DNA of 53,046 nt, from positions 1,495,270 through 1,548,315 of the forward strand of contig NZ_CM002128.1 of NCBI RefSeq assembly GCF_000448565.1. Reading direction: 5' to 3'. Positions 1 to 14,790 of this stretch are shown here, piece after piece (position 1 is the first letter of the stretch; each line of letters opens with the position of its first letter). A program made the position numbers and the translations under genes. A model generated the notes under the pieces. It had not been told where the DNA came from and did no database searches. It saw only the letters and a program-made list of their open reading frames with translations. This DNA comes from Streptococcus sp. HSISM1. GTDB lineage: Bacteria > Bacillota > Bacilli > Lactobacillales > Streptococcaceae.

Positions 1-775
1 GTTGAATCATATATTGAGTTTTTAACAAAATCAAATATAAAATCAAACACTCTACGACGAAAAATCGCAAGTTTGAAGGTTTTTTATAACTATTTAAAAT
101 TTCAAGATATAATTGATGAAAATCCTTTTAATCAACTACGATTTCAATTTCGGAAGGAAAAATATTACCTAAAACCATTCCTTATGATATTTTAAAAAGT
201 GTCTACTCATATTCAGAACAAAAAGTTATCTATTCAAAATCTAAATATCAAAAACAAAAAGCTGAAAGAAATTTACTAATCATTTCCTTATTACTTTCAA
301 CTGGCATTCGGATTTCTGAGCTTTGTCATATTCATCTTAAAGATATTAATTTTTCAAATAGAACACTTCATATTATCGGGAAAGGAAAAAAGAACGTATC
401 CTCTTTTTAGGAGACCAAACAACCTTTAGTTTATTGAAAACATATATAAATAAATACTGCGTCCGACCTAATGACTATTTATTTACTGGTCAAAATCCTC
501 TTAAAGCACTGTCAGAACAAAGCGTACGTCTAATTTTAAAGAAGCTGGTTAAGAAAAACAACTTATCTATAACTATCACGCCACATATGTTTAGACACAG
601 CTTTGCTACAATGCTACTGGATAAAGATGTAGATATTCGTTATATACAGCAAATACTTGGACATAGCTCTATTTCTGTAACTCAGATCTATACTCATGTA
701 TCTCAATCAAAACAAAAAGAAATACTCACTCTGTGTAATCCCATATCTTCCATTCGTTCTCGACCACAAAAGTAA
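1..775 (+). pseudogene. Tyrosine recombinase/integrase, 5'-truncated, two frameshifts
   Basis: Three reading-frame pieces join into one XerC/D-like site-specific recombinase that runs off the left edge. The catalytic signatures are visible: the first Arg in STGIRISEL (about 300-327), then HMFRHSFATMLL and GHSSISVTQIYTHVS (His-x-x-Arg, His, Tyr) near 587-705. The frame breaks at an A5 run (158-162) and an A6 run (384-390). One added A at each restores a continuous 258-codon frame. Both could be real decay or base-calling contraction. The second sits in A AAA AAG, a sequence that can also support -1 ribosomal slippage, but I do not favour that. It lies at the edge of an AT-rich island and may have moved it. 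Confidence 0.8.
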
Positions 776-1365: not shown

Positions 1366-2118
1366 TTATTTTTTACATATAAATAGCACCCGTTCCGTAC
1401 TATTAGAATCCCATAACAATTCAGAATATCCATCTCGTATCTCTACCGTTTTGAAACCAATTTCAAAAAGTTTTTTCTCAAGTTCTTCAATATTATGAAA
1501 ATAGTTATATATTGTTGAATCAAATCTTAAATAAGGAGTATTTTTATCTATTTTAAATGCACCATGAAATCTTGTAAAACCAACACCATGGATTTCATCT
1601 ACAAACCCTTCCCTAATAGATATTCCATCATCATCACTTGAAGATATAAAATAGTTATTATTTTTAATACCAATTGGAGTATTCATGTCAAAAATAAAAT
1701 ATCCTGAGTTTGATAATAGAGAGAAAACTGTTTTAAATACCTCGTAGATATCTTTATCTGTTTTTAAATGATTAAGTGCATCTGCTGTTGCAACTACTAC
1801 CTGATAATCATCTTTTGAATTAAATTCTACAATATCGCTCTGAATCAATTTAGTTTTAGATAAATTTGTCTTAGCAACCTCTAACATACTCTCAGAAATG
1901 TCAACACCATTCGTTTCCCAGCCTTTGTCTTCAAATTGAACAAGGAGGTTGCCCGTACCACACATTATGTCTAGAATTCTTCCGGTCTGTAATCCGTTTC
2001 TATTTAGAAAACACATTATAAAATTTCCATATTTTTTAGCTTGACCTGTCAAATACTTATTATAAAATAAAGAAAAATTTTTATCGTAATTCTTTTTTTG
2101 ATAGTTGTTATTATTCAT
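1366..2118 (-). CDS. Class I SAM-dependent methyltransferase, last gene of the peptide cluster
   Basis: 250 residues from the ATG at 2118, which has AAGGAG five bases upstream; a longer TTG start at 2133 lacks a better site. Motif I is LDIMCGTGNLL, followed by the acidic GVDISESML that binds the SAM ribose, and a DALNHL loop, which gives a Rossmann-fold methyltransferase. It starts one base after the MFS stop, so it is co-transcribed with the cluster. Target unknown. Context suggests it methylates the cluster's peptide product or a nucleotide-like part of it; a carboxymethyl-type chemistry as in some microcin C clusters is possible but not visible in the sequence. Confidence 0.8.
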   Translation of the reverse strand: MNNNNYQKKNYDKNFSLFYNKYLTGQAKKYGNFIMCFLNRNGLQTGRILDIMCGTGNLLVQFEDKGWETNGVDISESMLEVAKTNLSKTKLIQSDIVEFNSKDDYQVVVATADALNHLKTDKDIYEVFKTVFSLLSNSGYFIFDMNTPIGIKNNNYFISSSDDDGISIREGFVDEIHGVGFTRFHGAFKIDKNTPYLRFDSTIYNYFHNIEELEKKLFEIGFKTVEIRDGYSELLWDSNSTERVLFICKK

Positions 2119-2119
2119 T

Positions 2120-3271
2120 TTATCTCCTTCCAAACTCTATATATGATAATAATGACAATAGCATTAAAGTTGTACAAATTAAACTAATAGTAATTTGCAA
2201 ACTAAATAAACCCGACAATAAACTTACTAAAATTGATCCAAATGTCAACATAATAGAATTGGCAAAATTAATTAGAGATATAGATGATGCTCTAATATCA
2301 TCTCTCAAATCCTCATGAACCGTAGAATCAATTATGACGGACAGCAGTTCGTATAAAATATTAGGAACCATAAAACTTATTGTTACAATTATCGAGTGAT
2401 ACGGGAACCTCCCTATCCCTAAAAATAGTAGCAAAGAAATGAAAAATATAATAACTGCAACCCCTCTACTAGACCATTTACTTGTTAACTTTTCACTAAA
2501 AAAAGATAATACAGATCCTAACACAGATACAATTGCATAAATTAATGATACCTGCCCTGTAGTTAAACTTAATTGCTCTAGAACAACTGGCATATATTGA
2601 TAACTTAACGTTACGGATGACATCAAAAATGCAGACGATACTAATATATACTTGAACTTTTTTGTCGTTTTGACAAAATCATATAATCTTTCTAAATATA
2701 GTTTTATTGCTTTTTTATTATCTGCAATAGGCTCAACTTCTCTTATCTTAGAAACATCAAATGATGTTATACAGATTAGAGCAACTACTCTGAATAATAA
2801 TGATATCAAAAATAACAGTGTCCAAGATTTTTCTGCAATCCAGCCTCCAATTAAATTCCCAAAAGCAACTGATATTATCCCTAAAGAATTAAAAATTCCC
2901 ATATATTTTAGAAATTTATTACCATCTGTAATATTGTATAACAATGAGGTATCAGTCCCAGATATGAGAGATAGTCCTAGTGAAAAACAAATAAATCCAA
3001 TATAAATGACCATTCGATTAAGCGGAAAAAAGTAAGATATTAAATAAAAAATACAGATCAATTCTGCTAACTGCAATGCTCTTTTATAACCTATCTTATC
3101 AGCGATAATTCCTGAAGGAATTTCAAATATCGCTGAAAAAAAAGTGAATATTCCCTGTAAAAGTGCTATCTCAGCAATACTCCATCCAAAATTCTGTAGA
3201 TATATCATCCAAACTATTAGTTCTGGCATCATGTTTGAAAAACTATTATAAACTAAAATTTTCTTCATCAT
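2120..3271 (-). CDS. MFS transporter, probable exporter of the cluster product
   Basis: 383 residues with about 12 hydrophobic segments. The N-terminal half carries the loop GIIADKIGYKRAL, the classic MFS motif A between helices 2 and 3 (G-x-x-x-D-x-x-G-x-[KR]). It resembles Gram-positive drug/peptide efflux MFS proteins. Its start overlaps the end of the M3-like gene by 26 bases, which implies translational coupling. In microcin C operons an MFS protein (MccC) exports the modified peptide and gives self-protection; I infer the same role from position. Substrate not established. Confidence 0.85.
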   Translation of the reverse strand: MMKKILVYNSFSNMMPELIVWMIYLQNFGWSIAEIALLQGIFTFFSAIFEIPSGIIADKIGYKRALQLAELICIFYLISYFFPLNRMVIYIGFICFSLGLSLISGTDTSLLYNITDGNKFLKYMGIFNSLGIISVAFGNLIGGWIAEKSWTLLFLISLLFRVVALICITSFDVSKIREVEPIADNKKAIKLYLERLYDFVKTTKKFKYILVSSAFLMSSVTLSYQYMPVVLEQLSLTTGQVSLIYAIVSVLGSVLSFFSEKLTSKWSSRGVAVIIFFISLLLFLGIGRFPYHSIIVTISFMVPNILYELLSVIIDSTVHEDLRDDIRASSISLINFANSIMLTFGSILVSLLSGLFSLQITISLICTTLMLLSLLSYIEFGRR

Positions 3272-4942
3272 ATTTTCTCATAATATCTGTTACACAACTC
3301 TCTACTAATTTTTCGTAAGATAATTCTTCTCCAAGAACCATATTAAAAAATTCTTTGTCAGATATTCTTTCCCCTTTCTTTAGTAATTCAATCACAAATT
3401 CTAGACTTTTATCTTTCTTATAAAAATCATACGCAAGTATAAATGCAATGATATATCTAAAGTCATAACCATCCATATAAAAATGTTCATGCCTAACCCA
3501 ATTATAGCGATTAATGGGCATTTCCTCGAAATTTTTTATCGAATGGAACTTTGACATTATTTCATACCAAACATCAGAAATGTCCTCATTATCTAATTTT
3601 TGGTTTTTTGATTTAGTATATAACTGATATTCAATTGTACTATAAATAAAGGGTATAATAAAAGAATCTCTAATGAAATTATCAACTTGATCGAAAATGA
3701 TCAATTTTTCTTCAAAATTATTTCCTAAATAGTCGATTAAATACAATGTGCCTAAAATTGAAATAAATTCTGTTTTTAGAATTGATAACTCAGAATATAT
3801 AAACATACCATTTTGAGATGCATAATACTGCCCTATTGCTCCTGAAATCTCATGAGTCAGCTCAAATAAATCATCAAATTCACTATTCCAATTTACTGTT
3901 ATAAATGGATGAACTCCAAAGCAACTAATTGATCTTTGTCCAGGGTGCCGCAAAGTGTTCTTCTCCCTAGATATCCAATTATTAGTTATAACTTCTTCTA
4001 CAGCATTATAAAATTCTCCCCCTTTAACACGGAAAGTATTTAAAATAATTTTTGTAGCCTCGCTAAAAGATAATTTGAAGTTATCGCTATTTTTTAAATA
4101 GTAGAGATCAGAATAGGTAAATTTATTTAAGCCACTACGCTTGATTTTATTGTTTAAGATTTCCTCATGTAATAGAATAATTTTCTGCGTTATATTCTCT
4201 TGGAAGAAAAAAACACTCTGACTTTTATCAAAAATATTATTATAAACAAACATATCATAAGCATTTTCAAATCCATTTTGTTTAGCTATAAAGTTTTTCA
4301 ACTGAAAGTGAGTATTTAAAAAAAATGATGCTAAATTTGAATTTTCTTTTAAAAAAATTTCAACAGATTCATATGCCTCTCTGCGGTAAATTTGTTCCTC
4401 TACTCTAAGATATTGTAGGATATTTTCTTCTGTTATTTTCTCTATCCTATCATTTGTTGTAAATTTACCTATATATTCAAAACTACCATACCAATTAATA
4501 TAGGCATCCCTTGGTGATACTTTTTTATATAAATTTTTGCTATCAAAATCTTTCATACTAACAGAATCAGTCAACTTCTGTTGAAAAAATTGTTCATATT
4601 TTTTAGTTTTTCACTGCTTCTAAGTACCTCCAACGTTTTATCACTATTTAAAAATAGATTATTAAATAGCTTAATTTTTCTGTTAAATAATTGGTAAAGA
4701 GAATAAATTTCATGGATTCGCTTTGTTATATATGTGTTTGCTGAATCTTGCTCTCTTCTAAGCAAACCATAAGTATATAATCTATCTAACTTTTCTGAAT
4801 AATACTCGATTTTAGTAAAATCTTCATCAAGTATTTCAAGTTCAAATTTAAAACTCGGCATCTTCTCAAGAGATACTCTAGTTTCCTTCATTGCCTCTTC
4901 CCATTGTAAATCGTCGTAGTATAGTTTTGTTAAATCCCACAT
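3246..4942 (-). CDS. M3 (PepF-like) oligopeptidase homologue, zinc site altered, one frameshift
   Basis: Two overlapping frames (4571-4942 and 3246-4574) together match oligoendopeptidase F: N-terminal MWDLTKLYYDDLQWEE, then GQRSISCFGVHPFITVNWN before the metal site. The second frame begins only with TTG, and one added T in the T6 run near 4583 fuses them into 565 residues, close to PepF length. The normal HEXXH is HEISG here (residues 241-245 of the second frame), so the second zinc histidine is Gly, while the downstream ligand Glu (SILKTEF) is kept. It is likely inactive or uses altered chemistry, and may bind the peptide rather than cut it. Overlaps the genes on both sides. Confidence 0.75.
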
Positions 4943-6288
4943 AGTTTATCCTTGTTAAACATCTTATTCATATTAATTAGGCCATTATCAGTTAGTTCAA
5001 TTTCAGGTAGTTCAGGATTTTTAATATAGTATTGCCTGAAAACCCCAAAATCTAAAACTCTAGAACTTTTTCTAATTAAATTCACCAGTGCAGTAGTCTT
5101 TATTTCCTTCTCTCTATTATCTGTTGACTTAATATATTCATTTATTAAACCAACATACGTTTGCTTATCTTTCTGATCAATAAACTGGATTTGTTCAATA
5201 AATTCATCTAATTGATTTTTTGTAATTGGTTCAATTAATTCTAAAATCAAATCATATTTCTCCCAATTTTCAGAAAGATAAGCCTTGAAACTGAGAGGAT
5301 AACTCTTAACTTTTATACTATATCTATTCATAACTTTAGTTATAATATCAACAATCAAGTCATTAGGGAAATAGTCTGGATACAAAAATCTAGTCATTCG
5401 TTCCGTATCTGTACTAATTACATTATTGTATCGATAATATAATTCATTGCAATTTACATTAATATATTTTAGCAAATTGTTTGATTTTTTTAGTTCATAT
5501 ATAATTTCATCTTTAATATTAGCGCTATGTTCCTTAATCTCATCGTACATTTTAGCGTTAAATAGTAATCTGAAATGTATGTCAGATTGGAGTTCATAAT
5601 TTTTGTGTCTCAAGACACTATCTTCTAAATTTAAAGAGGTGAATCCAGTATAAGCCATCTTACCAGATTGAATCTGCTGAATTTGATTGTGTATATCTAT
5701 CTCCTCTATAATCTCTACAGCATTCGGAAGTTTATTGTCAGATATATTTTTCTCTAGAATTATCTTCTTATTTGTTGAAAGTTTACAAAAATATCCTCCT
5801 GAAGTAGTTTGAAAGTCAATCTCATCCTGCCTAAATTTTAACGGTGAAAAATTTGGACAGGAAAAAACATCTTTATATGTGTTGAGATTGAAAACATTCG
5901 CAAAAAACACATTGTCTTCAACCCACATCTCTATATTCTCTAGTTTAGCATTACCATAGATAAAATCTTTAGCACCTTTTATAAAGTCCAAATAATAAAA
6001 GCATTTTTTTCTTTGACTAAAAATTAACCTTAGAGTATATAAAAATTCTATAGCTGAAAGACTTGTATTATCAGACCAAAATACCTCATCTGTGAATTTT
6101 AAACAAATTACATTGTCTTTACTCATATCTACAAAATACGGTGATATATATTCACCTTGTAATTTTTTAATAATTGGTGTATATAAGAAACTAACAAATA
6201 GCCTAGTGTTCGTATCCATAGCATCCATAGGTATTAAACTTTCAGGTAAATCATCAACAAAAAAAATTATATTGTTTATTTTATCCAT
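4930..6288 (-). CDS. Cytoplasmic family-5 solute-binding-protein-like protein
   Basis: 452 residues. The stretch FTDEVFWSDNTSLSAIEFLY (about 65-84) matches the signature of oligopeptide-binding proteins (SBP_bac_5), and GGYFCKLSTNKKIILEKNIS matches the conserved G-x-Y-x-L...LEKN segment. Unlike the family norm it has no signal peptide or lipobox; the N-terminus MDKINNIIFFVDD goes straight into the domain. It overlaps the E1 gene by 8 bases and the M3-like gene by 13. An intracellular oligopeptide-binding fold in a peptide-modification operon suggests a carrier or recognition partner for the precursor. SgrR also has such a domain inside the cell, but no DNA-binding domain is seen here. Confidence 0.7.
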   Translation of the reverse strand: MDKINNIIFFVDDLPESLIPMDAMDTNTRLFVSFLYTPIIKKLQGEYISPYFVDMSKDNVICLKFTDEVFWSDNTSLSAIEFLYTLRLIFSQRKKCFYYLDFIKGAKDFIYGNAKLENIEMWVEDNVFFANVFNLNTYKDVFSCPNFSPLKFRQDEIDFQTTSGGYFCKLSTNKKIILEKNISDNKLPNAVEIIEEIDIHNQIQQIQSGKMAYTGFTSLNLEDSVLRHKNYELQSDIHFRLLFNAKMYDEIKEHSANIKDEIIYELKKSNNLLKYINVNCNELYYRYNNVISTDTERMTRFLYPDYFPNDLIVDIITKVMNRYSIKVKSYPLSFKAYLSENWEKYDLILELIEPITKNQLDEFIEQIQFIDQKDKQTYVGLINEYIKSTDNREKEIKTTALVNLIRKSSRVLDFGVFRQYYIKNPELPEIELTDNGLINMNKMFNKDKLCGI

Positions 6289-7213
6289 CTTCAGTAATTT
6301 CCATTGTTTTAAAATTTATTACATGGTAGTCGTAAAAGTTATATGAGGATTTAACTATATCTTTAAAAAGATAATCAAAAACAATCTGACTCAATAAAGA
6401 TGCTGTTACCATATTAGTTGTAGAAATGGAAGCCTTTAAATGAGCTGAAATTTCTTTTGAATCAGATTTATTAAACTGATTGTATCTATCATATATTGGA
6501 TTTATCGTCCCAGTTTCTAGACCAACATGTCCTGATATTACAGGGATATCCTTTTCTGAACAGGCTTCGGCAATTATATATTCAATATTACTAGGTGTAT
6601 CAGCACAATTAATTACTATCTGATAATTAGCTTGATCTAATATATTAAGAACTTGTTCTTCTTTTGTAATGAACTGTTCCCACTTTTTAATAGTAACACC
6701 AGACCAATTTTTTAAAACATTTTCTTCTAAAACATCGATTTTGCCTCTTCCGACATCTTCTTTTGTGTAAAACAATTGCCTATTTAGATTCGTTTGTTCA
6801 ACCTTATCTTTATCAACAATAGTGAAGTTGTTAAAACCAGCTTGTAATAAATTATTAAAAACAATGGTACCTATTCCTCCGCAGCCAATAATTAAAATAG
6901 GAGCATTTAAAATTTCAATAATATTCAAATCAGACAAAACTAGTTTTGAACTAGCGCGATCTAATATATACAAAAGTGTTCGTTCATTTAATAATATATC
7001 ATCCCTGGTCTGCTTATATTCTGGAAAAACCAAATCGTTTTGAATTAAAAATTCACTCAATTCAGAATCCTTTGATAGATTGTGGAGATTTAATAGAATA
7101 TTATAAAAAGTTCTATTATTATCTGTTATTAGAAAAGATTTTGTCCCTGAATTAATAACAACTTTTTTTGATTCATCACTATAATATAAAGCTATATTCT
7201 CTTTTAGTTTCAT
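6281..7213 (-). CDS. ThiF/MccB-like E1 adenylyltransferase, probable peptide-modifying enzyme
   Basis: 310 residues from the ATG at 7213, which has GGAGG four bases upstream; the upstream ATG at 7261 would read through a hairpin. The first ~95 residues resemble the peptide-clamp region found in MccB/PaaA-type enzymes. The Rossmann part shows GCGGIG (110-115), the acidic turn IVDKDKVEQ (132-140), NLNRQ (142-146), Lys158 and NCAD (202-205), the ATP and adenylation residues of E1 enzymes. No paired CxxC zinc cysteines are seen. E1 enzymes activate a carboxylate as an acyl-adenylate; here the 17-residue peptide immediately upstream is the likely substrate. Analogies: MccB (microcin C7) and PaaA (pantocin A). 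Confidence 0.8.
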   Translation of the reverse strand: MKLKENIALYYSDESKKVVINSGTKSFLITDNNRTFYNILLNLHNLSKDSELSEFLIQNDLVFPEYKQTRDDILLNERTLLYILDRASSKLVLSDLNIIEILNAPILIIGCGGIGTIVFNNLLQAGFNNFTIVDKDKVEQTNLNRQLFYTKEDVGRGKIDVLEENVLKNWSGVTIKKWEQFITKEEQVLNILDQANYQIVINCADTPSNIEYIIAEACSEKDIPVISGHVGLETGTINPIYDRYNQFNKSDSKEISAHLKASISTTNMVTASLLSQIVFDYLFKDIVKSSYNFYDYHVINFKTMEITEDG

Positions 7214-7221
7214 GTTCCTCC

Positions 7222-7253
7222 AAAAAAGTATCCTAAGACAGAACTTAGGATAC
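7222..7253 (-). terminator. Attenuator/terminator between the peptide gene and the E1 gene
   Basis: A perfect 10-bp stem (GTATCCTAAG / CTTAGGATAC) with a 6-base loop, followed on the minus strand by six T. It lies after the 17-residue peptide gene and before the E1 ribosome-binding site. Precursor genes of modified peptides often have such a leaky terminator, so that precursor mRNA exceeds enzyme mRNA. Confidence 0.8.
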
Positions 7254-7272
7254 CGATACATATCTTACAATA

Positions 7273-7326
7273 TTAAAGTACAGTACGACGAGTTGATTCA
7301 CGAGTTTCTTTTTCTTCTACAATCAT
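7273..7326 (-). CDS. 17-residue peptide, candidate precursor of the cluster
   Basis: ATG at 7326 preceded by GAAAGGAG at ideal spacing; the product is MIVEEKETRESTRRTVL, then TAA. Far below normal ORF cut-offs. The strong ribosome-binding site, its place directly before an E1-type enzyme and the attenuator behind it argue that it is translated and is the substrate. MccA peptides are similarly tiny (7 residues in E. coli) but end in Asn; this ends in Leu. The Glu-Glu pair near the N-terminus recalls the Glu-Glu that PaaA cyclises in pantocin A. Which chemistry applies is unknown. Confidence 0.65.
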   Translation of the reverse strand: MIVEEKETRESTRRTVL

Positions 7327-7391
7327 TTCTGACTCCTTTCTAAATATTATTTAAACATGTTTACAAAATAATTTATAAAACTCTTTCGAGA

Positions 7392-7529
7392 CTATCTCGT
7401 GTAAGTATTCGCTGGGCCAGGGTCAATCTCATTCATTGGTTTCGGTTTATTTGTTCCACCTTTACCAACAGCTAAAATCAATCCTCCCAACAAAGACATG
7501 ACAATGAGTTTCTTTAAAAACTTCTTCAT
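7392..7529 (-). CDS. Phr/PapR-like secreted signal peptide precursor
   Basis: 45 residues: a positive start (MKKFLKKL), a hydrophobic stretch (IVMSLLGGLILAVG), then a polar tail NKPKPMNEIDPGPANTYTR. ATG at 7529 with AAGGAG upstream. This is the layout of Phr-type quorum-sensing pro-peptides: Sec export, trimming to a short C-terminal peptide, re-import by Opp, and binding to a cytoplasmic TPR regulator. It lies directly downstream of a PlcR/TprA-type regulator, the usual partner. A role as a second substrate of the E1 enzyme cannot be excluded. Confidence 0.7.
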   Translation of the reverse strand: MKKFLKKLIVMSLLGGLILAVGKGGTNKPKPMNEIDPGPANTYTR

Positions 7530-7558
7530 AAGAATCTCCTTTAAATTTTGATAGATTT

Positions 7559-7587
7559 ATTTTAGCACTAAAAAATTTTTATGTCAA
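7559..7587 (-). promoter_or_regulatory. Promoter of the signal peptide and modification operon
   Basis: Minus strand: -35 TTGACA (7582-7587), a 17-base spacer, -10 TAAAAT (7559-7564), about 30 bases before the signal-peptide start codon. A near-consensus SigA promoter. Confidence 0.75.
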
Positions 7588-7607
7588 TATTTTTTATAAA
7601 CCTTTTT

Positions 7608-7638
7608 TATACTTTGTTTTTTATACTTTTTTTGTATA
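7608..7638. promoter_or_regulatory. Candidate operator for the PlcR/TprA-type regulator
   Basis: TATAC, seven T, GTATA (7622-7638) is a perfect inverted repeat just upstream of the -35 box; a further TATAC half-site lies at 7608-7612. The position suits an activator or repressor of the signal-peptide promoter. The link to this regulator is inferred. Confidence 0.4.
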
Positions 7639-7648
7639 TAACGATAGC

Positions 7649-7675
7649 AAAAAAACGATACCCGTGAGCATCGTT
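7649..7675 (-). terminator. Terminator of the regulator gene
   Basis: A 6-bp stem AACGAT / ATCGTT (7654-7659 with 7670-7675), followed on the minus strand by a T tract, 8 bases after the regulator stop. It separates the regulator transcript from the peptide operon. Confidence 0.6.
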
Positions 7676-7682
7676 CCAATAT

Positions 7683-8554
7683 CTAATTTTTAAATTTATC
7701 AGAGATATAGTGCTCCATTGCCAGAGCCTTCTCTGTATTATCTTCAATTTGCTTATACAAAAAATGTGCAGTCTCAAAGTAGGTTTTAACCGTCGTTCTT
7801 TCTGAAAAGTTTTGACTTAGATTTCCCAACAACACAAATGAATCAGCTAATAAATAAGTTGTTCGATAATCTTGACATAGTTTTATAGTGGCAGTTATTT
7901 GTTTAATAGCTGATTCCGTATTGTTTTGTAGCCAAAAATAACGACTAAGATTGTAGTTAAATTTTACGGACAGCTCCAGTTCCTCTATTGTATTTAAAGA
8001 CAATTGCTGCAAATGAGTGGTCAATTCTTCCTTCATCGTATCAAACTTAGCTAGGCTATCTGTATCATAGTAGAAATTAAAAAGCGTATTGGAAATTTGA
8101 AGGTAGTTTATATCTGTCTTATGAGTTGATTTTAATGCCTTTTCTAACCGCTCTATTGCTAGCTCTCTTCTATCGTGAACGTAAAACTCAACCAATGAAG
8201 CTATCCATTCCAGATATATTTTATCTGACAATGATAAGCGATGAGATTTTTTTTCTCTAAATCATAGATATATTTCAAAGATTCATAATTTCTTTGAGTA
8301 ATGAACGTTTTAGATATTTTTTTAAAATCAATAAGCTCTGTACTCTCATTCAAAATTTGCTCGTCAAAAAAATAATCCATACTAACATTGAGTTTTTTAG
8401 CCAGTTGATGCAATAATTCTGAACCCGGTGTATATTCTCCGTTCTCCAAACGACTAATTTGACCTTGCTTACAAATGCCTTCTGCCAATTCTTTTTGAGA
8501 TAATTTCAATTCTTTTCTTCTACTCTTAATCCTAGTAGCTAATAAGCTTCCCAC
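7683..8554 (-). CDS. PlcR/TprA-type quorum-sensing transcription regulator, one frameshift
   Basis: GTG start at 8554 with GGAGG upstream. The first ~60 residues form an XRE helix-turn-helix (KLSQKELAEGICKQGQISRL, then ENGEYTPGSELLHQLAKKLN). The C-terminal part is all-helical with TPR-like repeats (IERLEKAL..., ESAIKQITATIKLCQ), the peptide-binding domain of the RRNPP family. The frame breaks at an A8 run (8247-8254); one added A gives a continuous 290 residues, the normal PlcR-family length. Next to a Phr-like peptide gene this forms a signalling pair comparable to TprA/PhrA. If the frameshift is real, the peptide-binding domain would be lost and the island deregulated. Confidence 0.8.
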
Positions 8555-12703: not shown

Positions 12704-13471
12704 ATGGATTTTCAACCCAATCTAGAACAGACACTCCGTTCTTTGCAAGCAGGTCATCTCTCCGTCGAGGATGCGCTTGAGCAAATCAATGGAGTTAAAG
12801 AACTAGGATATGCAGCAATTGATACTGACCGGCAACGTCGCAACGGCTTCCCTGAGGTCGTATACGGCGAAGGAAAGACAATTGAGCAAATTGAAGGAAT
12901 CCTGCAATTTCTTTCAGAAAAGGAATTGCCGATCCTCACAACAAGAGTCTCTCTCCAAAAGGGAGAGGCTCTTTCTCAGCGCTTTCCGACTGGCCACTAT
13001 TATCCAGAAGCTCGCTGCTTCGTTCTCAACTCTAAAAAAGAAGAAGCCGATCCTGAACACTACATTGCGGTCGTCACAGCAGGGACAAGTGATGTTCCTG
13101 TTGCAGAAGAAGCTGCAGTCACTGCAGAAACCTTTGGCCATTCGGTTCGCCGAATCTATGATGTGGGAGTCGCCGGTATCCATCGCCTCTTCAATCGCTT
13201 AGAAGAGATCCAAAAAGCCAGTGTGATCATCGTGATTGCCGGTATGGAAGGAGCTCTTGTCAGTGTCGTAGGAGGCCTTGTGGATGTCCCCGTTATTGCC
13301 GTTCCGACCAGTATTGGATACGGAAGCAACCTTCAAGGGCTAACGACCCTTATGAGTATGTTGACCTCTTGCGCTTCTGGCGTAACAGTCGTCAACATTG
13401 ATAACGGATTTGGTGCAGCTTATTCAGCATGTATGATCAATCGACTCAACCACAATCGAAAGGAAAACTGA
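12704..13471 (+). CDS. larB: LarB, pyridinium-3,5-dicarboxylate mononucleotide synthase
   Basis: 255 residues. The C-terminal two thirds carries the PurE/NCAIR-mutase-like core: [54 protein letters not shown]. LarB carboxylates and hydrolyses nicotinate adenine dinucleotide, the first step of cofactor synthesis. It starts 8 bases after larA; its stop overlaps the larC start by one base (TGATG). Confidence 0.93.
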
Positions 13472-14790
13472 TGACCAGTCTATTTTTAGAACCTTTTTCT
13501 GGAATAAGTGGCGATATGCTCAATGGTCTTCTTGTGGACCTTGGGGCAGATGTCGAACTTCTTCATACAGAACTCGAGAAACTGGGAGTGGATGGTTTCC
13601 ACCTCCACGTTCACCGTGTCGCAAAAAGCGCAATTTGGGGAACTGATTTCGATGTTCACCTTCACCACGGGGAGAAAGATACGGGGATTGAAGGTGATTT
13701 TGATCACGAACATCATCACGATCACGAACACCATCACGATCATGAACACCATCACGATCATGAACACCATCACGATCATGAACATCATCACGATCATTCC
13801 CATGCGGATGCTCGCAGTTATGCGGATATCCACGATTTGATTGTCGCTTCTCAGTTGAGTCCTTTTGTGAAACAAAAAAGTCTGGAAGTCTTTCTTGATA
13901 TCGCAAAGGCCGAAGCAGCTGTGCATAACATGCCTGTCGAACAGATTCATTTCCATGAAATTGGTGCAATTGACTCCATCGTCGACATCGTTAGCTTTTT
14001 CATCCTAGTGGAATCGCTCGGTATCGATACAGTTTACTCCACTCCTCTCACTGAGGGAAGTGGGACCATTTCAGTTGCCCATGGAGAAATGCCTGTTCCG
14101 GTTCCCGCTGTGATGCAATTGAGAAAAGGAACGACTATTCCGATTACTCAAGACTTCACAGTCAAAACGGAGTTGATTACTCCAACAGGGTTAGCCCTCC
14201 TTAAAGCATTGTCCCCAATCTTTGAACCAATCCCCTCTCACCTTTCCATCGAAAGTGTTGGCTATGGATTTGGTAAAAGAGAGACTGGAAAATTCAATGC
14301 TTTACGCGGTTCGCTATTGAGAGAGGACACCTCTCACAGCACCACTGTTGTTCATCGCACGGAAGATCAAATCGTTGAGATCACCACTACGATCGATGAT
14401 CAAACACCAGAGCAACTCGGTTATATTATCCACCGTTTCCTGGACGCTGGAGCTTTAGATGTCTACTATCGTAGCGTCGTTATGAAAAAGAATCGCCCTG
14501 GCTTTGAGTTGATTCTCTTGATTCAAGGAAGTCAGTTGGAAGATTTTTCAGCCCTCTTGTTCAAAGAAACCAGTACTATTGGTTTTCGATACCAACAAGT
14601 CGACCGAAAGGTCATGCAACGTCGATTTGAACAAATCGATACGGAATTTGGACCCGTTACGGTAAAAATTAACCAGTACGGATCTACCACTAAAAAAACA
14701 CTTGAATACGAAGACTGTCAGCGTATTGCTACGGAGATGCAGTTGTCGATTCAAGAAGTTTATCACCAATTACAAAAATACATTTATTAA
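13471..14790 (+). CDS. larC: LarC, nickel insertase, with His-rich repeat; single uninterrupted frame
   Basis: 439 residues from ATG 13471 (GAAAGGAAAA upstream); an earlier in-frame ATG at 13429 lies inside larB. N-terminal LEPFSGISGDMLNGLLVDLG and the central HFHEIGAIDSIVDIV are family hallmarks. LarC uses CTP to insert nickel into the thiolated pincer nucleotide. Residues about 78-117 are a His/Asp/Glu-rich stretch that probably stores or delivers nickel. In L. plantarum larC is read as larC1/larC2 through programmed frameshifting; here it is one continuous frame. Confidence 0.93.
   Translation: MTSLFLEPFSGISGDMLNGLLVDLGADVELLHTELEKLGVDGFHLHVHRVAKSAIWGTDFDVHLHHGEKDTGIEGDFDHEHHHDHEHHHDHEHHHDHEHHHDHEHHHDHSHADARSYADIHDLIVASQLSPFVKQKSLEVFLDIAKAEAAVHNMPVEQIHFHEIGAIDSIVDIVSFFILVESLGIDTVYSTPLTEGSGTISVAHGEMPVPVPAVMQLRKGTTIPITQDFTVKTELITPTGLALLKALSPIFEPIPSHLSIESVGYGFGKRETGKFNALRGSLLREDTSHSTTVVHRTEDQIVEITTTIDDQTPEQLGYIIHRFLDAGALDVYYRSVVMKKNRPGFELILLIQGSQLEDFSALLFKETSTIGFRYQQVDRKVMQRRFEQIDTEFGPVTVKINQYGSTTKKTLEYEDCQRIATEMQLSIQEVYHQLQKYIY
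13702..13791 (+). repeat. Five 18-bp tandem repeats encoding DHEHHH inside larC
   Basis: Five direct copies of an 18-base unit (consensus GATCATGAACACCATCAC) with a few silent T/C changes, each encoding Asp-His-Glu-His-His-His. Copy number can vary by slippage without breaking the frame. Confidence 0.95.

Follow-up and report, generated by a model that had tools for sequence, protein, structure and literature searches.

Microcin C is the described system that stands closest to the locus considered here. In the relevant passages of PMC6495379, a terminator lies between mccA and mccB, every precursor of the major MccB clade, that of the heptapeptides, ends in asparagine, and longer MccA precursors with an MccB subfamily of their own are known. 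More broadly, the ThiF enzymes of ribosomally synthesized and post-translationally modified peptides (RiPPs) are described, in parts of PMC12150305 and PMC12250964, as adenylating a peptide carboxylate that a nucleophile then attacks. The same parts present pantocin A (PaaA), GRC (GrcB), enterofaecin (EnfB) and IndF as products or enzymes of this logic, in which an E1 enzyme adenylates the carboxylate of a short ribosomal peptide; they place some streptococcal and enterococcal members near quorum-sensing genes, and mention neither a substrate-binding protein (SBP) nor an M3 peptidase as partner. The locus at issue occupies positions 1366-8554 of a 53,046-nucleotide stretch of Streptococcus sp. 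HSISM1 (contig NZ_CM002128.1, positions 1,495,270 to 1,548,315; hereafter the window), and combines an MccB-type E1 adenylyltransferase and a tiny candidate precursor with exactly such genes, one for a protein related to oligopeptide-binding proteins and one for a protein related to M3 oligopeptidases. Judged from sequence, the cluster is a microcin C-related RiPP lineage. We hold it an evenly balanced proposition that it is a mobile cluster for a ribosomal, E1-modified peptide in which the SBP-like and M3-like proteins would serve as cytoplasmic peptide-binding partners before export.

A preliminary description of this stretch, drawn from its letters and open reading frames (ORFs), had compared the cluster with microcin C operons and singled out the SBP-like and M3-like members as unusual. 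Both points are supported, and so is its reading of the locus as a peptide-modification cluster. The check set beforehand, co-occurrence of the E1 gene with the other two, was positive: E1, SBP and M3 are collinear in four lineages, namely Streptococcus parasanguinis S32 and plasmids of Lactiplantibacillus plantarum, Lactococcus garvieae and Staphylococcus aureus, and because the arrangement recurs across genera the cluster represents more than chance. The host is itself an S. parasanguinis relative, its E1 being 100% identical to that of S32. Plasmid pLL441-1 of L. plantarum carries E1, SBP, M3, major facilitator superfamily (MFS) and methyltransferase genes in an order identical to that of the window, the L. 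garvieae plasmid carries E1-SBP-M3-MFS spanning the origin of its record, and S. aureus pC314_1 carries a divergent JmjC-MFS pair followed by E1-SBP-M3-GNAT; two more S. aureus plasmids hold copies of the cluster in pieces. Predicted blaZ and cadD genes lie near the cluster on pC314_1 (L036, 1-2564 and 12792-13406), so that there it rides on a resistance plasmid. The fifth lineage, genome G766 of the Bacilli, has JmjC, radical SAM, DUF5825, MFS, E1 and SBP genes, the radical SAM protein also matching a B12-binding model, narrowly short of the cut-off. In that genome the radical SAM, DUF5825 and JmjC genes sit beside the E1-SBP pair (L071, 13925-17547), and the JmjC protein has a homologue (31%) in the S. 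aureus cluster.

Outside S. parasanguinis, the E1 clade was found on five plasmids of 72,556 records and in G766. The window SBP matched four of these records and its S. aureus or L. plantarum homologue five; E1 matched eight, with the same five plasmids first; and M3 matched 122, the same five leading among the best 20 of 122, where the other 15 reach 81-102 bits and mostly bear the annotation pepF. Among 284 genomes of the genus, E1 gave 13 matches at 1e-15, near-identical only in its own genome and G144 and at most 39% identical in the rest, while SBP gave six matches at 1e-3 in 323 genomes of the family (its own and G144 strong, four weak) and two at 1e-5 in 325 genomes of the order. A scan of genome contigs returned one locus, that of S32. 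An E1 profile, trained on clade members, exceeded 400 bits in 3/398 genomes of the class and 1/239 of the phylum, with 33 and 2 genomes passing 1e-30 and the own genome counted in both sets. These genome sets are samples with a single genome per species, so the scarcity on chromosomes is no more than an indication. SBP relatives were not found in the viral contigs or phages searched, and E1 found 44 weak ThiF-domain loci in the viral contigs. Screening of 40 other E1 loci with SBP and M3 profiles, mostly in 1.5-kb flanks and with some loci being the same place or near copies, and of ten larger stretches round ten of them, yielded OppA-like ORFs flanking three loci (in G674, G738 and G708) and an ordinary PepF in one stretch. 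These OppA-like ORFs were set aside as counterparts; in G738, the one examined, the OppAs have lipoprotein signals and are divergent from E1. SBP and M3 were not found in four larger E1 regions round G342, G1053, G104 and G931.

A small ORF of 15-18 residues with a Shine-Dalgarno (SD)-like site lies upstream of E1 in all five lineages. In the window it is a 17-residue peptide, MIVEEKETRESTRRTVL (7273-7326, minus strand), and its counterparts are MLVDEKETREMHRRTLF in L. plantarum, MEIEEKESREMHRRT in L. garvieae, MKVTKKTSREMVKRT in S. aureus and MKIKRIKPTSSRPMAVRS in G766; the ORF on S. aureus pC205_2 is the same as that on pC314_1. All five share the motif [ST]RxxxxR[TS], at the C-terminus or two residues before it. 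In an SD-preceded ORF the motif arose in 0, 0, 0, 0 and 1 of 3000 Markov shuffles (S. parasanguinis, L. plantarum, S. aureus, L. garvieae and G766, respectively), and without the SD condition in 5, 1, 1, 2 and 10; as the motif was chosen after the peptides had been seen, these figures support and do not prove the assignment. By tblastn the window peptide alone found its counterparts in L. plantarum (7e-05) and L. garvieae (5e-04) but, at 1e-3, not those in S. aureus and G766. Codons in the four aligned precursors differ synonymously, and a chance ORF was rejected on these changes together with the counterparts in four other lineages. The C-terminal ends are VL, LF, T, T or S, with no asparagine, and the core motifs WWIVI, NWYFI, Glu..Cys and Glu-Glu, read directly, are absent from or unconserved in the five precursors, Glu-Glu occurring in the window and L. 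garvieae peptides and not being conserved in the other three. A hairpin lies between peptide ORF and E1 in all five lineages, in the window as an 11-bp stem with a T run (7227-7254, minus strand), in the same place as the terminator that follows the E. coli microcin C precursor in passages of PMC6495379. Folding z-scores are weak in the window (-1.36) and L. plantarum (-1.95), and reach -12.88 in S. aureus, -3.16 in L. garvieae and -5.23 in G766. By this comparison the ORF is a conserved precursor that the terminator-like hairpin separates from the operon.

The E1 gene (6281-7213, minus strand) encodes a ThiF-domain protein (5.6e-36) whose best PDB matches are MccB structures (3e-16). In a midpoint-rooted tree of 42 rows, with two duplicate loci dropped, several long branches and PaaA, GrcB, EnfB and IndF not included by name, the five lineages form one clade (99/96), which groups with E. 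coli MccB and the G342 enzyme at 97/85. The G342 locus is itself microcin C-like, with a heptapeptide ORF, MHRIMKN, upstream of E1. Alignment of the clade with the E. coli ATCC 25922 enzyme by hhalign gave a probability of 99.4 over 228 columns, and an arginine, a lysine and an aspartate aligned with MccB are invariant in all five E1s. Like microcin C, then, the cluster has an MccB-type E1, a tiny precursor and an MFS gene in the operon, and its methyltransferase answers to the S-adenosylmethionine (SAM) enzyme present in E. coli; unlike microcin C, its precursor has 15-18 residues rather than 7 and no C-terminal asparagine, and SBP and M3 genes are added. An anti-phage E1 system was rejected, PADLOC E1-E2 matches being weak (best 2.4e-14) and absent for SBP and M3. 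A second E1 match of this genome sits, by eye, in a CBASS-like locus upstream of the window and near the cluster, with CD-NTase-like, E1-like (in pieces) and JAB-like genes (L072, 12405-15665); the same island holds LanM-like lanthipeptide synthetase ORFs, also by eye, apparently in two pieces (L072, 2203-5192).

The SBP gene (4930-6288, minus strand) overlaps E1 by 8 nt in three lineages, which fits translational coupling, by 0 nt in S. aureus and by 59 nt in G766, where the start is uncertain. The protein belongs to the SBP_bac_5 family by homology only: the S. aureus (9e-10) and G766 (2.7e-41) copies match the Pfam model above its curated cut-off and the L. garvieae copy below it (7.6e-06), the window and L. 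plantarum copies have no match in that search, and the family profile matches OppA-size ORFs of 538-634 residues. It resembles OppA in sequence family and differs in having no recognisable signal peptide. By inspection a signal-like N-terminus is absent from all five SBPs, whereas two OppA controls from G738 have lipoprotein signals; N-terminal hydrophobicity is narrowly lower in S. aureus (2.01, against 2.13 for the lower control) and 1.09-1.30 in the other four. An ordinary OppA was rejected on the missing signal peptide, as judged by inspection. The M3-like protein (3246-4942, minus strand, present in the window as two ORFs, 4571-4942 and 3246-4574) resembles PepF (M3B) in the same limited sense. 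Its two pieces match the pepF model TIGR00181 at 2.7e-38 and 5.5e-07, neither reaching the curated cut-off, it has no Pfam match, and the S32 copy matches 2qr4 at 2.8e-25. In the four M3 lineages, one of them (L. garvieae) a partial sequence, the second zinc histidine is glycine (HExxG, HEISG in the window), with His-Glu and the downstream glutamate kept, whereas HExxH is kept in the controls, streptococcal PepF (HEIGH) and 2qr4. Because this motif is missing, the M3-like protein is probably not a peptidase, and an ordinary PepF was rejected on the same ground.

The window MFS exporter (2120-3271, minus strand; MFS_1 2.7e-30) is 40% and 43% identical to those of the L. plantarum and L. garvieae clusters. 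An MFS gene is present in all five lineages and homologous in four, so far as MccC is concerned the likeness being the presence of an MFS gene in the operon. The SAM-dependent methyltransferase (1366-2133, minus strand; Methyltransf_25 1.1e-13) is 49% identical to that of the L. plantarum cluster and shares with the E. coli SAM enzyme, which we take to be MccD, a generic motif only (30.8 bits over 48 residues). A Mad2-like match (1.6e-16) was likewise taken as generic SAM similarity.

Taken as a whole, the locus is laid out much as first described. ORF and domain searches of 1366-8554 confirmed one minus-strand run with the named complement of genes, and the five downstream genes indeed overlap or abut, by 8 nt (E1/SBP), 13 nt (SBP/M3) and 26 nt (M3/MFS), the MFS/methyltransferase junction being an overlap or an abutment according to the choice of methyltransferase start. 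AT-richness was borne out, with 28.4% GC where 75 overlapping segments of the same size downstream of 8600 range over 37.7-45.1%, and horizontal transfer is supported by this low GC and by recurrence on plasmids across genera. As to the flanking remnants, a tyrosine recombinase remnant does adjoin the cluster (1-775, plus strand; Phage_integrase 1.5e-23 for 434-775), while the insertion sequence remnant is a short ORF (1053-1211) identified by eye only. The regulator and the M3-like gene are present as described but each in two frameshifted ORFs; together with the neighbouring recombinase they are intact in S32, at 290, 565 and 299 residues for regulator, M3-like protein and recombinase. All five indels between window and S32 in the first 9 kb, the part inspected (13 further gaps of that match lie beyond), are one-base gaps in the window copy, and assembly error is therefore as likely as decay. 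In S32, TIR-like, SIR2-like and SPASM-type radical SAM ORFs (by eye) adjoin the intact integrase (L017, 15302-19120), which gives the site the look of a hotspot where defence and peptide genes collect. Further along the window, a LarC-like ORF (13429-14790, by eye) has histidine-rich HHHDHE repeats whose number differs between window and S32.

Upstream of the peptide gene stands a putative regulatory cassette. A PlcR/TprA-type regulator (7683-8554, minus strand) is split in the window into 8201-8554, with the helix-turn-helix part (HTH_3 1.3e-15), and 7683-8231, the C-terminal part; the intact S32 protein matches PlcR 2qfc at 6.3e-14 over residues 5-276. Adjoining it is a PapR/Phr-like signal peptide precursor of 45 residues (7392-7529, minus strand), 36 of them identical, by eye, to the PapR sequence of S. 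thermophilus JIM8232 given in PMC12445099, a source that in part also reports the C-terminal portion of S. thermophilus PapR, detected by mass spectrometry in concentrated culture supernatant. The arrangement is that of a PapR/TprA pair, whose activity is predicted; PlcR-type regulator and 45-residue precursor are as in S. thermophilus, and the target operon, as far as seen, differs. A sigma-70-like promoter (TTGACA-17-TAAAAT, 7559-7587, minus strand, 11/12 consensus positions) precedes the signal-peptide gene, but it comes from a consensus scan that found 7 sites in the region against a shuffle mean of 7.4, no more than expected. Of the quorum-sensing control initially proposed, what stands is the cassette in the S. 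parasanguinis copies; control itself is only inferred, and tblastn at 1e-3 detected neither regulator nor precursor in any of six plasmid stretches or in that of G766. The same or a related cassette lies upstream of different ThiF clusters in other streptococci (L022, 6138-11895; L021, 6651-8838; L027), with precursors 89% and 37% identical, making it a swappable switch, a local regulatory module outside the conserved system.

If these parts act together, the hairpin would make the peptide message more abundant than the enzyme messages. E1 would adenylate the precursor's C-terminal carboxylate and couple it to a nucleophile, either a side chain, giving a macrolactone or macrolactam, or a nucleotide, giving an adduct like that of microcin C. 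In the cytoplasm the SBP, which has no recognisable signal peptide, and M3, deficient in its zinc site, would hold the precursor or the activated product, present the peptide to E1 and protect it against oligopeptidases of the cell until MFS export. The methyltransferase would tailor the product, with GNAT or JmjC in the clusters of other lineages; in S. parasanguinis the PapR/TprA circuit would switch the operon on at high density; and the function would likely be competition, as for microcin C. Several observations weigh against this account. The window hairpin is unexceptional by folding energy, 18/200 shuffles folding at least as well, and the small ORF is out of frame on a broken S. aureus plasmid (CP141500). 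The window SBP has no significant Pfam or PDB match of its own, an M3 gene was not found in the G766 stretch read around E1-SBP, and the dead-enzyme claim for the M3-like protein depends on one motif. The S. aureus MFS is unrelated to that of the other clusters, and two genes are split in the window copy.

The chief rival to SBP and M3 as peptide-carrying partners is immunity by sequestration, in which the two would mimic OppA and PepF and soak up peptide or product re-entering through the oligopeptide permease, outside synthesis altogether. Both folds belong to proteins that take up peptides or break them down inside the cell, with location or catalysis apparently lost; no MccF-like (S66) peptidase is annotated among the neighbours of the plasmid clusters, whose gene tables are incomplete; and a GNAT gene follows in the S. 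aureus cluster, MccE being a GNAT-type product that detoxifies microcin C. The SBP gene nevertheless directly follows E1, with the 8-nt overlap in three lineages, and is kept where M3 is absent, which suits an E1 partner better; for this reason SBP is favoured as the peptide-carrying partner of E1, and sequestration seems to us rather unlikely.

Microcin C-type chemistry can go with either role of SBP and M3. A true peptide-nucleotide, to which E1 adds a nucleotide and whose product poisons an aminoacyl-tRNA synthetase for an amino acid other than aspartate, would agree with the grouping of E1 with MccB and with the tiny precursor, hairpin, MFS and SAM enzyme found as in mcc, and passages of PMC6495379 do record an MccB subfamily that goes with longer MccA precursors. 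Yet the precursors end in Thr, Ser, Leu or Phe and never in Asn in any of the five lineages, where the heptapeptide clade, in the same passages, has Asn universally, and the methyltransferase likeness is generic; we regard this outcome, too, as doubtful. A signalling rather than killing role, the modified peptide being a pheromone or a cargo for conjugation or competence control, might be read from the quorum-sensing cassette of S. parasanguinis, the plasmid location in other lineages and the proposal, in parts of PMC12250964, that ThiF products are quorum effectors. However, the annotated tables list no conserved receptor gene beside the cluster and neither the plasmid stretches nor that of G766 gave a match to the cassette, and such a role appears improbable. 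Tentative, and somewhat short of an even prospect, is a RiPP class of its own: an MccB-like E1 would work with two repurposed oligopeptide proteins, an uptake receptor relocated to the cytoplasm and a peptidase lacking its zinc site, and these two would hold the activated peptide, permit new C-terminal chemistry on a core with a Thr/Ser end and protect the producer.

Among the titles, abstract openings and passages covered, no case was found of a ThiF RiPP enzyme joined to an SBP or M3 partner, although supplementary material may list such a cluster. The term adenylyltransferase does not occur in two papers on L. plantarum LL441, nor thiF in one of these, PMC6107846. If the reading of SBP and M3 as peptide-carrying partners is right, an oligopeptide-binding protein and a dead oligopeptidase would become parts of a RiPP pathway, a combination of which we know of no earlier case. 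The five-lineage set offers genome miners an E1/SBP/M3 signature with which to find more. Further, the cluster would provide a test system in a food bacterium, given that a conserved peptide with a single-enzyme modification is directly assayable. Finally, it would represent a new lineage of MccB-type peptides that follows a different precursor rule.

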